DNA from: Limimaricola sp.
Lineage (GTDB): Bacteria > Pseudomonadota > Alphaproteobacteria > Rhodobacterales > Rhodobacteraceae
Assembly (NCBI RefSeq): GCF_016125575.1
Contig: NZ_WGLM01000005.1
Location: 186,001-250,000 of the forward strand
Length of the DNA stretch: 64,000 bases
Direction: 5' to 3'
Part shown: piece after piece, positions 43,775-63,522 of the stretch
How the letters are laid out: every line of letters starts with the position of its first letter
Numbering within the stretch: position 1 is the stretch's first letter
Made by a program: the position numbers and the translations under genes
Notes under the pieces: model-generated
Seen by the model: only the letters and a program-made list of their open reading frames with translations
Told to the model about the DNA's origin: nothing
The model's database searches: none

Positions 43775-44913
43775 AGGTCTTCCTGATCGCGGGCGAACCT
43801 TCGGGCGATCGTCTGGGCGGCGCGCTGATGGCGGGCCTGAAAGCATTGCATCCAGACCTGACTTTCGATGGCGTCGGCGGGCCGCTGATGCAGGCCGAAG
43901 GGTTGAACAGCCGTTTCCCGATGGATGAACTCAGCGTCATGGGGTTGGCCGAGATCCTGCCGAAATACCGCGCGCTCAAACGCCGCATTTCCGAAATGGC
44001 AGAGGCCGTTCTGGCCACCGCACCAGACGTCTTGATCACCATCGACAGCCCCGATTTCTGCCTGCGCGTCGCGGCCCTGGTCAAGGCGCAGGCACCGGTC
44101 CGTACCGTGCATTATGTTGCCCCGTCGGTCTGGGCGTGGCGGCCCGGCCGCGCGGTGAAGATGGCGCGCTACATCGACGAGGTTCTGGCGCTTCTGCCAT
44201 TCGAGCCGCCCTTGATGCAGGCCGCCGGCATGGAATGCACCTTCGTCGGTCATCCGGTGGTGGCTGAACCCGTTGCAACCATGGCCGAAGCTGCCGCCTT
44301 TCGCGCCGCGCATGGCATTGGCGAGGTGCCGTTGATCCTCGCGCTGCCCGGCTCGCGCAAGGGCGAGGTTGGCCGATTGGCGCCGGTCTTTGGCGCAAGC
44401 ATCGACAGGGTGCTGAGCGTTCATCCCAATGCTCGGGTCGTGGTGCCTTGCGCGGCCCCCGTGGCGGGCCTCGTGGCGCAACTGACGCACAAATGGCCCG
44501 GACGGCCGATCCTGATCGATCCGGCCACAGCGCGGCCCGGCGAGAAGGCCGCGGCCTTTCGCGCCGCCGACGTGGCGCTGGCGGCCTCCGGCACCGTCTC
44601 GCTCGAACTGGCCGCGAACGGCACGCCGATGGTGATTGCCTACCAGATGGCATGGCTGACGCACCAGATCGTGTCGCGCCGATTGCTCATTGATACGGTG
44701 ACGCTGGTCAATCTTGTCAGCGAAACCCGCACCGTGCCTGAATTCATTGGCCCTGCCTGCCGGCCCGACCGGATTGCCGAGGCGCTGCTGGCCACGATGG
44801 CCAACCCGCAGGCCCAGCAGCAGGCCATGCAGTTGACAATGGAACGTCTAGGGCAGGGGGGCGAGGCGCCGGGCCTGCGCGCGGCCCGCGCGGTGCTGGC
44901 CGGTCTTGCCTGA
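43771..44913 (+). CDS. lpxB: Lipid-A-disaccharide synthase
   Basis: A 380-residue GT19 glycosyltransferase. FLIAGEPSGDRLGG at the N-terminus, YVAPSVWAWRPGR, FVGHPVV and ALPGSRKGEV are diagnostic. It joins lipid X and UDP-diacylglucosamine to form the lipid A disaccharide. The ATG at 43771 overlaps lpxI by 4 bases. No lpxD lies between the Skp-like gene and fabZ, unlike in Escherichia coli. Confidence 0.96.
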   Translation: MKVFLIAGEPSGDRLGGALMAGLKALHPDLTFDGVGGPLMQAEGLNSRFPMDELSVMGLAEILPKYRALKRRISEMAEAVLATAPDVLITIDSPDFCLRVAALVKAQAPVRTVHYVAPSVWAWRPGRAVKMARYIDEVLALLPFEPPLMQAAGMECTFVGHPVVAEPVATMAEAAAFRAAHGIGEVPLILALPGSRKGEVGRLAPVFGASIDRVLSVHPNARVVVPCAAPVAGLVAQLTHKWPGRPILIDPATARPGEKAAAFRAADVALAASGTVSLELAANGTPMVIAYQMAWLTHQIVSRRLLIDTVTLVNLVSETRTVPEFIGPACRPDRIAEALLATMANPQAQQQAMQLTMERLGQGGEAPGLRAARAVLAGLA

Positions 44914-47431: not shown

Positions 47432-51681
<4,250 letters not shown>

Positions 51682-51707
51682 CACCTAAACCTACAATGTT
51701 CGCACAT

Positions 51708-51722
51708 GTTCTCACAAAGTTC
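51708..51722 (+). promoter_or_regulatory. LexA box (alphaproteobacterial GTTC-N7-GTTC)
   Basis: GTTC at 51708-51711 and GTTC at 51719-51722 are separated by exactly 7 bases, the SOS operator described for Rhodobacter sphaeroides recA and other Alphaproteobacteria. A third GTTC at 51698 has 6-base spacing. The box is 65-79 bases before the start of a small membrane protein gene. Confidence 0.7.
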
Positions 51723-51786
51723 TTTACACGCCGTTAACGATATGGAACAAAGAGGCAACGAAGCAGACACGAAACAGGAGGCACCG

Positions 51787-51918
51787 ATGGCCCGCAAGAT
51801 TACCCAAGCCCTGAACCGCGCCGAACAAAGCCCGCTGGGCGACGCGATTGGCGCGGCCTCGCTTCTGGTCATGCTGGTGGCGTCGCTGTCGCTGCCCGCG
51901 CTTTTTGGAGGAATTTGA
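51787..51918 (+). CDS. SOS-associated small membrane protein (43 residues)
   Basis: The ATG at 51787 follows AGGAGG by 5 bases and opens 43 codons. Residues 1-18 are polar and basic (MARKITQALNRAEQSPLG) and 19-40 form one hydrophobic helix (start DAIGAASLLVMLVASL), ending in PALFGGI. A longer frame from 51706 exists but lacks a ribosome site. The LexA box directly upstream suggests DNA-damage induction. In Caulobacter the LexA-controlled SidA (29 residues) and damage-induced DidA are small membrane proteins that inhibit division through FtsW/FtsN; this gene is analogous in size, topology and control, though I see no sequence similarity I can claim. Confidence 0.7.
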   Translation: MARKITQALNRAEQSPLGDAIGAASLLVMLVASLSLPALFGGI

Positions 51919-51939
51919 ACTGCCCGGCGTCTCGTGCCG

Positions 51940-52072
51940 GTCGTCCGGTCATCGCCCTGTCCCAAGCTACGCGATGACGGCCTGATCTCTGCCTGTCCTC
52001 AGCGCCCATTCCGGGGGTTGCCTGCCCCCGCCGGACGTCGCCCGGGTCCCACACGAGAACGCACTGCCTGCC
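51940..52072 (+). ncRNA. Hairpin-rich transcribed region, candidate small RNA or 3' UTR
   Basis: Between the small membrane-protein gene and a terminator lie about 150 bases without an ORF. They hold a stem GTCATCGC (51948-51955) with GCGATGAC (51971-51978), and a second hairpin GGGGG (52013-52017) with CCCCC (52027-52031). It does not match tmRNA, 6S or SRP RNA as I know them. It could be a 3' UTR or a 3'-derived small RNA. Confidence 0.3.
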
Positions 52073-52109
52073 GCCGCCATCCTGTCCCGGATGCGCGGCG
52101 GTTTTTTCT
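52073..52109 (+). terminator. Rho-independent terminator
   Basis: CCGCCGCCATCC and GGATGCGCGGCGG form a long stem with one bulge and a 6-base loop, followed by TTTTTT. It ends transcription from the small membrane-protein gene before the convergent NifU-like gene. Confidence 0.88.
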
Positions 52110-52111
52110 TG

Positions 52112-52564
52112 TCAGGAGGGATGCGTGGCGCGCGCGGCCTCCATCGCCTCTAGCGTCGCCTCGAAGGCCAGCATGATCGAGCCGTGACGGTTGCGGTACT
52201 CGCGCGCAGGCTCCAACGCGGCAAGGGCGGCAAAGGGCGCCTCGGGCACAGGGCCGCCGGATGTCAGCATGGCGTGCAACTGGTCGCGCCCGCGCCGCAC
52301 CGTGGCCTCGTCCAGCCCCACCACAGCCGCCCCAAGGACCGAGGCTGCCGCCTGTCCCAGCGCGCAGGCCCGCACCTCTTGCGCGAAATCGGCGATCCGG
52401 CCGTCCTGCATGACAAGATCGACCGTGATGGTCGAACCGCAGGCGGGCGCGCGGCGGCGCACGCTGGCATCGGGCGCTGCCAGCCGCCCCGTGCGGGGCA
52501 TGGCCGTGGCCAGGCCGAGGATGCGGGCGGAATAAAGCCGGGTAAGATCGCTGTCGTCAGTCAC
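52112..52564 (-). CDS. NifU-N/SufU-like iron-sulfur scaffold family protein, ligands incomplete
   Basis: A 150-residue protein of the IscU/SufU fold. The first two ligand cysteines are present (PACGST, Cys42; RACALGQ, Cys67). The Asp that follows the first Cys in SufU (CGD) is Ser, and the third Cys is replaced by a REYRNRHGS segment. It may be a degenerate scaffold or have another role. It diverges from hisI. Confidence 0.78.
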   Translation of the reverse strand: MTDDSDLTRLYSARILGLATAMPRTGRLAAPDASVRRRAPACGSTITVDLVMQDGRIADFAQEVRACALGQAAASVLGAAVVGLDEATVRRGRDQLHAMLTSGGPVPEAPFAALAALEPAREYRNRHGSIMLAFEATLEAMEAARATHPS

Positions 52565-55909: not shown

Positions 55910-56623
55910 TCAGAGGCCCGGAATCAGCTGCGAGACGTTACGATTCCGGAACGTGGCACCCCGTGCAGTGCCAAACCGGTAGGTCGCACCAATCCCGTAG
56001 AATGTCTCGCCCAGATCGCCGCTCGAGGTATTGAACGAGGCATTGCCGGTTTCCGCGTAAAGCGCAAATCCGCCCCCCAGCTTGACCTGCGCGCCAAGCG
56101 ACAGGCGCGACGCGCTAAGGTCCATCCCGCTGTCAATCGAATCGTAGCGCGCGGTGATATCGAAACTGTCGTCAATGGCGACCTTGCCGAAAACGCCGTA
56201 GACAGTGTACCCGTTAACCGAGGAGGCCGTGGGTTTCGCGTAATAGCCCTCGACGGCCAGCGCACGGTATTCCGTTCCGGCCTCCAGCCCGAAGAAATTG
56301 CTGTCCTCGCCGTCAATCGTCTCGTTGCCGAAGAAAAGCCCCGCCGTCGAGGTCTCGCTCAGGTGATAGAGCCCGTGAAAGACATAGCTCGTGCCGTTGA
56401 AATCGTATTCGTTGAAATGGGTGCGCGACAGGTCCACCTGCATCCCAAGGTTGCGACTGAAATCAACTTCGGCCGACGTCTGGATCAAGGACGCATTCGC
56501 GTCACTCAGGTCGCCCGTAAAGGACGAATAGCCCAAGGTGATTTCGCCGCCGGCAATCTGTTGCGCCTGTAACGGGGTGGTTGCCGCAAAAAGCGCGGCA
56601 ACAGCAATTGCTGTTCTGATCAT
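55910..56623 (-). CDS. Predicted outer-membrane beta-barrel protein
   Basis: A 237-residue protein with a signal peptide (hydrophobic core 5-15, cleavage after PLQAQ near 20). The rest alternates polar and nonpolar residues in many short strands with aromatic girdle residues (FHGLYHL, VYGVFGKV, YGIGATYRF). It resembles small porin-like or autotransporter-barrel proteins but has no named family I recognise. No C-terminal Phe; it ends SQLIPGL. Its neighbour at 56770 has a similar plan. Confidence 0.6.
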   Translation of the reverse strand: MIRTAIAVAALFAATTPLQAQQIAGGEITLGYSSFTGDLSDANASLIQTSAEVDFSRNLGMQVDLSRTHFNEYDFNGTSYVFHGLYHLSETSTAGLFFGNETIDGEDSNFFGLEAGTEYRALAVEGYYAKPTASSVNGYTVYGVFGKVAIDDSFDITARYDSIDSGMDLSASRLSLGAQVKLGGGFALYAETGNASFNTSSGDLGETFYGIGATYRFGTARGATFRNRNVSQLIPGL

Positions 56624-56769
56624 GTTCCTGCCTCATGCTCGAATAACGGGGCTTCGCCCTCTGGTGGTAAAAATGTATCAGATATACGTATTTAATCAAA
56701 CCTGAATGACCCCAATTCGGATTGAGCCATTTCAACTTTTGATTGTGCGCACCCGAGGCGGCATCTGGA

Positions 56770-62596: not shown

Positions 62597-63522
62597 GCGA
62601 AGCTCCGTGTCGGGCGGTCGAAGATGCGCCGTCCCAGCAACGAGGCTGCCAGGTCGACCATCACCGACGCGGTGCGCCCACGATCGTCAAGGAAGGGGTT
62701 CAACTCGACAAGGTCGAGCGAGCAGACAAGACCGTAATCGCAGAGCATCTCCATCACGAGATGCGCCTCGCGCATGGTGGCGCCACCGGGGACGGTGGTC
62801 CCTACGGCGGGGGCAACCGAAGGGTCTAGGAAATCGACATCAAGCGAGACGTGAAGCAGGCCATCGGCCGCCTCGACCTTTTCAAGGAAGGCCTCAAGCG
62901 GTGCGCGGATGCCCTGTTCGTCGATCATCCGCATGTCCACGCGCACGACATCGGATTCCTCCAGCGCAATCCGTTCCGGCCCGTCAACCGATCGCAGGCC
63001 AATCATGCAGACGTGGTCCTGCGGCACGACGGCGGGCAGGGGCGGAAACGCCTCGAACCCATCACGTCCCGTCAGATAGCCCACCGGTGTGCCGTGCAGG
63101 TTGCCACTATCTGACGTCAGCGGCGTGTGAAAATCGCTATGCGCATCCAGCCACAGTACGAAAAGCGGCTTGCCCAGCCGTTCGGCGTGGGCAGCCATTC
63201 CGGCGACCGAGCCCAAAGAGAGTGCATGATCGCCGCCCATGAAAATTGGCATGCCGTGGGCCGCGGCCTCTTGCGCCGCACGCATCAGCGCGCGCGTCCA
63301 GCCGACGTTCTGGTCCAGTTCCCAGACCAGCGGGTTGGACGAAGGCGCGACGGTGACTGCGTCAGGGGCGATGTTGCCCATGTCGGTGACGGGGTGGCCG
63401 AGAGCCGAGATCGCCTCGGCCAGTCCGGCGGTGCGGTAGGCGTCGGGGCCCATCAGGCAGCCGCGGCGGCGCTTGCCGCAGTCAACCGGGGAACCGATCA
63501 GGATGATGTTCTGTTGTGTCAT
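62593..63522 (-). CDS. rocF: Arginase
   Basis: A 309-residue dinuclear manganese hydrolase that makes ornithine and urea from arginine. Metal motifs GGDHALSLG, DAHSDFH and SLDVDFLDP are all complete. IGSPVDCGKRRRGCLMGPDAYR at the N-terminus favours arginase over agmatinase. The ATG at 63522 is preferred; the frame is open upstream to 63705. It probably shares a promoter region with the divergent Lrp gene. Confidence 0.93.
   Translation of the reverse strand: MTQQNIILIGSPVDCGKRRRGCLMGPDAYRTAGLAEAISALGHPVTDMGNIAPDAVTVAPSSNPLVWELDQNVGWTRALMRAAQEAAAHGMPIFMGGDHALSLGSVAGMAAHAERLGKPLFVLWLDAHSDFHTPLTSDSGNLHGTPVGYLTGRDGFEAFPPLPAVVPQDHVCMIGLRSVDGPERIALEESDVVRVDMRMIDEQGIRAPLEAFLEKVEAADGLLHVSLDVDFLDPSVAPAVGTTVPGGATMREAHLVMEMLCDYGLVCSLDLVELNPFLDDRGRTASVMVDLAASLLGRRIFDRPTRSFA

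Follow-up and report, generated by a model that had tools for sequence, protein, structure and literature searches.

Small membrane proteins made under SOS control are the closest described counterparts of the locus analysed here. DivS, like YneA, SosA and ChiZ, is an SOS-induced membrane division inhibitor of Gram-positive bacteria. SidA of Caulobacter binds FtsW/FtsN and arrests division while leaving the Z ring in place. In Caulobacter crescentus, the SOS-induced inner membrane protein SidA (29 aa) acts on FtsW, and DidA has been described alongside it (PMC4211646). YneA, SosA and ChiZ are DNA-damage-induced small membrane proteins that block late division (PMC13396833), and together with SidA they present the arrest of late division by SOS small membrane proteins as a recurring solution (PMC13396833, PMC4211646). 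The membrane helix of YneA, a protein which also carries an extracellular LysM domain, binds TM7 of FtsW, and low-confidence models suggest FtsW as the target of SidA, SosA and ChiZ too (PMC13396833).

Our analysis supports the existence of a LexA-boxed, conserved, single-span membrane micro-protein encoded just downstream of recG in Rhodobacterales. Like SidA, it is alphaproteobacterial, it is placed under SOS control (here by its box), and it is a tiny single-span membrane protein (here a predicted one). It differs from SidA in its length of about 40 aa, in that its gene mostly follows recG, and in the structured RNA that comes after the gene. A profile of the micro-protein (profile A1) was searched against 385 genomes of the class at E ≤ 0.01. 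It found its own genome, four other members of the family, and one weak partial match (E 0.0027), with no credible match outside Rhodobacteraceae. We liken the micro-protein to SidA by analogy. YneA, SosA, ChiZ and DivS are likewise small membrane proteins under SOS control; they block a late step of division, as is proposed for the micro-protein. Unlike YneA with its LysM domain, the micro-protein ends a few residues past its membrane helix.

Rhodobacteraceae are abundant marine bacteria with standard models in Rhodobacter, Ruegeria, and Dinoroseobacter. In the open-access literature we found no description of the gene or of its RNA, which subscription papers or supplements may mention, and no SOS division checkpoint for this family. 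As the gene is so widespread and seems to be controlled by a double LexA operator, the existence of such a checkpoint can be put to a direct test. The in-silico LexA sites of D. shibae that are named in the main text of PMC6473078 do not include the micro-protein gene.

In the window, the 64-kb stretch of DNA that was analysed, all parts of the unit lie on the forward strand. Its immediate upstream neighbour, outside the unit, is the recG ORF (696 aa, 49591-51681, forward strand); the position downstream of recG, which had been claimed beforehand, was found in the window and in relatives alike. The putative LexA operator O1, GTTCTCACAAAGTTC, is an exact GTTC-N7-GTTC at 51708-51722, just as the earlier note had described it. 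An extra GTTC half-site is located 6 nt ahead of O1 (51698-51701), and a presumptive -35 element, TTTACA (51723-51728), abuts it on the other side. A degenerate second LexA box in the opposite orientation, O2 (GAAC-N7-CAAC, 51745-51759), would cover the -10/start region; this box was absent from the earlier note. The Shine-Dalgarno sequence AGGAGG (51776-51781) is indeed well positioned, with a spacing of 5 nt to the ATG at 51787, and the proposed 43-codon gene corresponds to an ORF of 43 aa (51787-51918) that starts 105 bases past the recG stop (51681). According to the ORF list, the translation, the alignment, and AlphaFold2, this ORF is made up of a short N-terminal helix and one membrane helix with a D-x-x-G core. 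It is followed by a structured RNA with an intrinsic terminator at its end (51919-52107), which was recognised from motifs, fold, an arm-pairing test, and alignment. The downstream neighbours are an ORF on the other strand that we take to be NifU-like and an ORF that is presumably HisI-like.

The gene and its box are widely conserved. We searched 61 genomes, including 37 from Rhodobacteraceae, with the protein sequence and obtained matches in 26 genomes at the threshold of E ≤ 1. Five weaker matches (L054-L058), at chance level and with no recG neighbour, were dropped. The resulting ORF-first set consists of 23 loci, window included, all of them just 3' of recG, in which O1 is present in 23/23, the adjoining TTTAC in 21/23, and O2 in 22/23. 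Profile A1, built from these loci, matched 354 of 394 genomes of the same family, searched one per genus, at E ≤ 0.1. By our count by eye, 11 of these matches have E above 0.001, so that some of the weakest could be due to chance. The best 30 loci of the profile search carry O1, O2, and recG without exception (30/30 each). As they share eight genomes with the ORF-first set, the two sets amount to 45 distinct strong loci, and O1 is placed between recG and the ORF in every one of them. Meanwhile, 30 weaker matches displayed O1 in 27 cases and recG in 28. Lack of conservation in related genomes had been named beforehand as an outcome that would speak against the gene; instead, both ORF and box turned out to be strongly conserved. 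Most genera of Rhodobacteraceae, a large family with members in the sea and in soil, thus seem to possess a DNA-damage gene that has been overlooked and that encodes a membrane protein some 40 residues long.

Genomes with no or only a weak match were sampled as well (n = 30), and 25 of their recG loci were readable. By eye, about 20 of these keep a short membrane ORF, about 18 of them with an exact box. Several of the exact boxes stand in reverse orientation near the position of O2, and some of the divergent membrane ORFs do not have the G. The remaining five of the 25 loci displayed neither box nor membrane ORF by eye, hence the gene can be lost; lexA is present in four of these five genomes. 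No pattern coupled loss of the gene to loss of lexA, which was found in 26 of the 30 sampled genomes. Occurrence outside Rhodobacteraceae was supported neither by the search of 385 genomes nor by the 27 closest non-family recG loci, none of which combines a box with a membrane ORF (L373 has the box only, and L361 a hydrophobic ORF only). Since 354/394 genera match inside the family and nearly none outside, the gene looks like a family-level innovation. Second profile matches in 14 genomes were rejected as second copies of the gene: these are partial membrane-helix matches, of which three are phage-type ORFs and several others look like chance.

The same GTTC-N7-GTTC motif occurs within 350 bases upstream of the lexA match at 18/18 loci of the family (19 genomes, one without a lexA match) and upstream of the recA match at 16/19, where the boxes are in reverse orientation (GAAC-N7-GAAC read towards the gene). 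Together with the conservation of the box in the three sets of loci above, this bears out the earlier proposal of a LexA-boxed gene. The lexA promoters of six genera (L096-L099, L103, L110) display two overlapping N7 boxes, with three GTTC in a row, and resemble the GTTC triplet upstream of the micro-protein gene.

A scan of named genomes with a promoter-only pattern, devoid of coding information, returned at least 118 stretches. Among the matches listed, 117 of 118 lead to the ORF at E < 1e-3, and the remaining one (L295) ends 33 bases after the pattern. Stretch-wide counts use all 118 listed, detailed counts of bases, proteins, and RNAs use the first 80 loci, and this promoter-first set overlaps the ORF-first and profile genome sets (e.g., L274 and G005). 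We take most of its genera to be Rhodobacteraceae, a few being titled only Alphaproteobacteria, Rhodobacterales, Paracoccaceae, or Pseudomonadota. The four bases of the upstream GTTC half-site are kept in 69, 75, 70, and 74 of 80 loci, though they lay outside the search pattern. The GAAC half of O2 belonged to the pattern and its second half (NAAC) lay outside it; 7 nt after GAAC, the matches listed read NAAC in 118/118 and CAAC in 107/118. The distance from O1 to GAAC is 38 bp in 106 of the 118 stretches listed. Two LexA boxes apparently bracket the -35 element, the second of them degenerate and in the recA-like orientation, and the transcript would start over the O2 region. The -10 hexamer is poor, and no promoter was called in the consensus scan of the locus. 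Judging from these operators, we consider it highly probable that the gene is under SOS regulation, with LexA repressing at O1 and O2 and RecA-triggered cleavage of LexA inducing the gene after DNA damage.

In 115 of the 118 promoter-first stretches, among the matches listed, recG lies ahead of the promoter pattern. Two of the three stretches without recG end early, with 72 and 65 bases of upstream sequence. The third, from Loktanella sp. DSM 29012 (L288), displayed no recG match in 6.7 kb upstream; here the gene and its operators are kept after other ORFs, presumably PepA-like and HolC-like, which indicates that the gene can stand without recG. The link with recG looks positional, given that operators and a terminator belong to the gene itself and that this one stretch has no recG match upstream.

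ORFs could be extracted from 79 of the 80 promoter-first loci, that of L279 running off its locus. Their length is 40 aa in 54/79 cases, a count that leans towards 40 because the start was taken as the ATG giving the length nearest 40. The D and G of D-x-x-G are invariant (79/79), one L is kept in 78/79, and a P in 77/79; an SD-like sequence precedes the ORF in 74/79 relatives. Of the single-base codon differences, counted over non-independent pairs among 79 sequences, 63.5% are synonymous, where random changes would give 28.7%, and the reading frame is clearly under purifying selection. As had been claimed, a single hydrophobic helix is predicted in the window protein, both by hydropathy (Kyte-Doolittle maximum 2.13 over 19 residues) and by AlphaFold2, which placed helices at residues 4-11 and 16-40 (mean pLDDT 76.7, pTM 0.40). 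The 17-residue membrane core contains no charged residue in 80/80 proteins, and the micro-protein would be inserted in the membrane. A basic N-terminus had been claimed as well and is present in a mild form: positions K6 and R11 are conserved as basic, and the N-terminal part through the invariant D has a mean net charge of +0.36 over 80 proteins, so that across the family it is not more than mild. With 23 members as queries, Pfam and NCBIfam gave no significant match (best E 0.13 and 0.064), and the window protein matched none of the PHROGs families.

Based on these features, we propose that most Rhodobacteraceae have retained this locus as an autonomous transcription unit under repression by LexA. 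When bound to O1, beside the -35 element, and to O2, over the -10/start region, LexA would keep the gene off, and DNA damage would turn it on through RecA-triggered cleavage of LexA. Translation of the mRNA would then yield a membrane protein some 40 residues long (43 in the window), with a short amphipathic helix on the cytoplasmic side followed by one uncharged membrane helix that begins with the invariant D-x-x-G. This helix may dock on a membrane partner in the late divisome, for which the septal synthase FtsW-FtsI is the likeliest candidate, and such docking would hold septation back until the damage is repaired, in the manner of SidA in Caulobacter. The remainder of the transcript folds into a closing helix holding hairpins with C-rich loops, with a terminator at the end.

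SulA (Pfam PF03846) was found in none of the 61 genomes, that of the window included, with a positive E. coli control, which makes another division inhibitor plausible. The case for such an inhibitor combines the LexA boxes, the docking-type helix, the absence of SulA, and the recurring use of this solution elsewhere. A SidA-like late divisome inhibitor acting through docking on FtsW-FtsI, drawn by analogy, has in our judgement slightly less than an even chance of being correct. The overall reading, a LexA-controlled micro-protein that delays division plus a structured RNA on its transcript, is put forward just as tentatively.

TisB and other SOS-controlled type I toxins are also small and under SOS control. 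Hence, the micro-protein might instead be an SOS membrane toxin of the TisB kind, a peptide that depolarises the membrane and slows growth, with a structured 3' RNA controlling its translation. The similar size, the LexA box, the apparent double operator, and a structured RNA that immediately follows the ORF on its strand all fit such a toxin, which we nevertheless regard as unlikely. TisB-like toxins have an amphipathic helix with charges along the membrane core, whereas the core here is uncharged in all 80 proteins and contains an invariant D and G, features of a docking helix more than of an amphipathic pore former. Most toxin pairs are not known to be kept at one locus across most genera, whereas this gene is kept in most genera of the family and mostly at one locus. 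The untranslated regions of the transcript do not favour a toxin either: pairing between the 3' RNA and the 5' untranslated region was not supported (397/400 permutations pair at least as well). As for an antisense partner, the consensus scan found no sigma-70-like site on either strand, and there was no Rfam match.

Many small single-span proteins regulate other membrane proteins. In the same way, the target of the micro-protein during DNA damage could be another membrane protein, such as a protease, a transporter, or the CckA-CtrA relay, while the divisome is not affected directly. LexA has been tied to CckA and to gene transfer agents in this group (PMC9638019, PMC6473078), which is in line with such a role. 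However, our analysis gave no positive evidence for any such partner, and we judge this improbable as well.

The divisome reading that we prefer includes the structured RNA after the ORF, an element that was absent from the earlier note. The RNA of the window (51919-52108) folds at -90.6 kcal/mol (z -4.1, 0/200 shuffles). In this fold, a long closing helix P1 (5' arm 51927-51947, 3' arm 52032-52062) surrounds three hairpins, namely P2 (51948-51978, loop CUGUCCC), P3 (51979-52006, loop CUGCCUGUCC), and P4 (52012-52030, loop UGCCU). The terminator stem (52070-52102) and a T run to 52107 come next; the terminator region 52050-52112 has a z of -4.0. In related sequences, window included, the 3' motif CTGCCTG occurs in 59/76 against 2.4 expected, and CTGTCCC in 53/76 against 2.9 expected.

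Because MAFFT alignments of the whole set recovered little of the RNA beyond the terminator, we compared each species' own helix arms with permuted arms (400 permutations) and aligned a subset of ten sequences. The arm test took in only RNAs with placeable arms or motif, out of the 79 ORF loci and the window. Own arms paired better than permuted arms in P1 (n = 59, z -15.3), P2 (n = 46, z -7.8), P4 (n = 25, z -7.3), and the terminator (n = 59, z -14.4), with 0/400 permutations reaching them in each case, against z -1.0 and 65/400 in a negative control (n = 54). P3 was not supported as a helix across species (n = 41, z -1.6, 22/400). In the alignment of the ten sequences, chosen for alignability, P1, P4, and the terminator were recovered, and 9/31 pairs had changed on both sides. 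Compensatory changes were also seen in the terminator stem. When the 66 untranslated regions with a recognisable terminator, out of the 79 ORF loci and the window, were each folded alone, only 29 gave z below -2, and the mean was -1.96. Their CUGUCC/UUGUCC motifs are 71% unpaired, compared with 43% for the background. Collectively, these results strongly support a conserved and structured 3' RNA, with strong covariation in P1, P2, P4, and the terminator.

At the gathering cut-off, Rfam 15 returned nothing for this RNA, and only sX13 and BcKCsr2 appeared, far below their cut-offs. The evidence for the 3' RNA is strong, and it counts as an element of its own for which Rfam 15 offers no match. 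Since the ORF and the RNA lie close together, we infer that they share one transcript. The consensus scan called a single terminator-like site within the ORF (51876-51896), a number at chance level (0.4 expected); a real terminator at this site would divide the ORF from the RNA.

SgrS/SgrT and RNAIII are dual-function RNAs, and the locus resembles them in joining a small protein and a structured RNA on what would be a single transcript; it differs in its LexA-boxed promoter and in an RNA part whose function is putative. The sX13 RNA of Xanthomonas is built of three stems with C-rich loops and acts as a repressor of mRNAs that have G-rich motifs close to their start (PMC3771888). The 3' RNA also displays several stable stems with C-rich apical loops; unlike sX13, it is bounded by a closing helix and comes immediately after a coding gene. 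At 13.7 bits against a cut-off of 50, it was rejected as a member of the sX13 family, which serves here as a model for what the RNA might do. A regulatory role of the 3' RNA is probable. It may act in trans, its loops pairing with G-rich ribosome-binding sites, a proposal to which we give not quite half of our credence.

The RNA might even be the main product, with the ORF secondary. The helices covary strongly, and two or more loop motifs are found downstream of the ORF in 58/76, 15/22, and 20/30 loci, against 1/69, 0/21, and 0/30 in controls (L046 was omitted from this count). Even so, purifying selection on the protein is clear and some of its residues are invariant, and at some loci the ORF is retained where few of the RNA motifs are seen, all of which makes this reading very unlikely.

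A more far-reaching version of the divisome reading is a dual-function SOS transcript, in which the micro-protein docks on the divisome, the C-rich loops of the RNA repress G-rich ribosome-binding sites, and micro-proteins of phages with D-x-(I/L)-G hit the same host target. We offer it as a speculation that is probably wrong in at least some part. If true, one LexA-controlled RNA would delay division at the level of both protein and mRNA.

The phage-type look-alikes, which were absent from the earlier note, are small membrane proteins with D-x-(I/L)-G. They were observed in prophage-like regions, in phages of Roseobacter, Dinoroseobacter, and Rhodovulum, and in viral contigs (L343 and L346; L387 near 3000; L388, 2450-2584; L389, 2902-3099; L390-L396). 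The look-alike ORF at the genome end of CRP-403 is not annotated in its record. Second profile matches in L342, L344, and L345 (reverse strand) are small membrane ORFs beside phage-type genes, and five neighbours of these ORFs match PHROGs families. Against 50,697 phage records, one phage-type ORF matched only Rhodobacterales phages (6/6 records from four phages, E 1 to 10), another matched 7 records with mixed hosts, and a third gave no match. The motif pattern retrieved 8 loci in viral contigs, 6 of them with one nearly identical protein of about 44 residues in the same layout, and the profile matched viral-contig proteins at E 2e-4 to 6e-4 (84-kb set). D and G are common to all nine aligned look-alikes. 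As a lead, the likeness to the host protein over 25 residues might reflect common descent or convergence, and the presence of look-alikes in phages that infect these hosts hints at a membrane target common to both. Carriage of the host-type gene itself on plasmids or phages was rejected: one query found no such copy, and no viral contig carries the promoter.

In number, GTTC-N7-GTTC is at chance level both in the window (4 observed, 1.9 expected) and in the genome (64, compared with 73 for a reversed control pattern), and the box alone was ruled out as evidence. The idea that a random box came to lie near a random short ORF is compatible with the genome count, yet it is refuted by the conservation of ORF, operators, and promoter across relatives, and we give it practically no weight. 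The locus stands above chance because the position of box and ORF is conserved, not because of the box count. The further exact boxes of the window are located at 44605-44619 (reverse strand), 56613-56627, and 63307-63321 (both forward strand), a number that fits chance, and the box at 56613 shares bases with the beginning of an ORF on the reverse strand (55910-56623).
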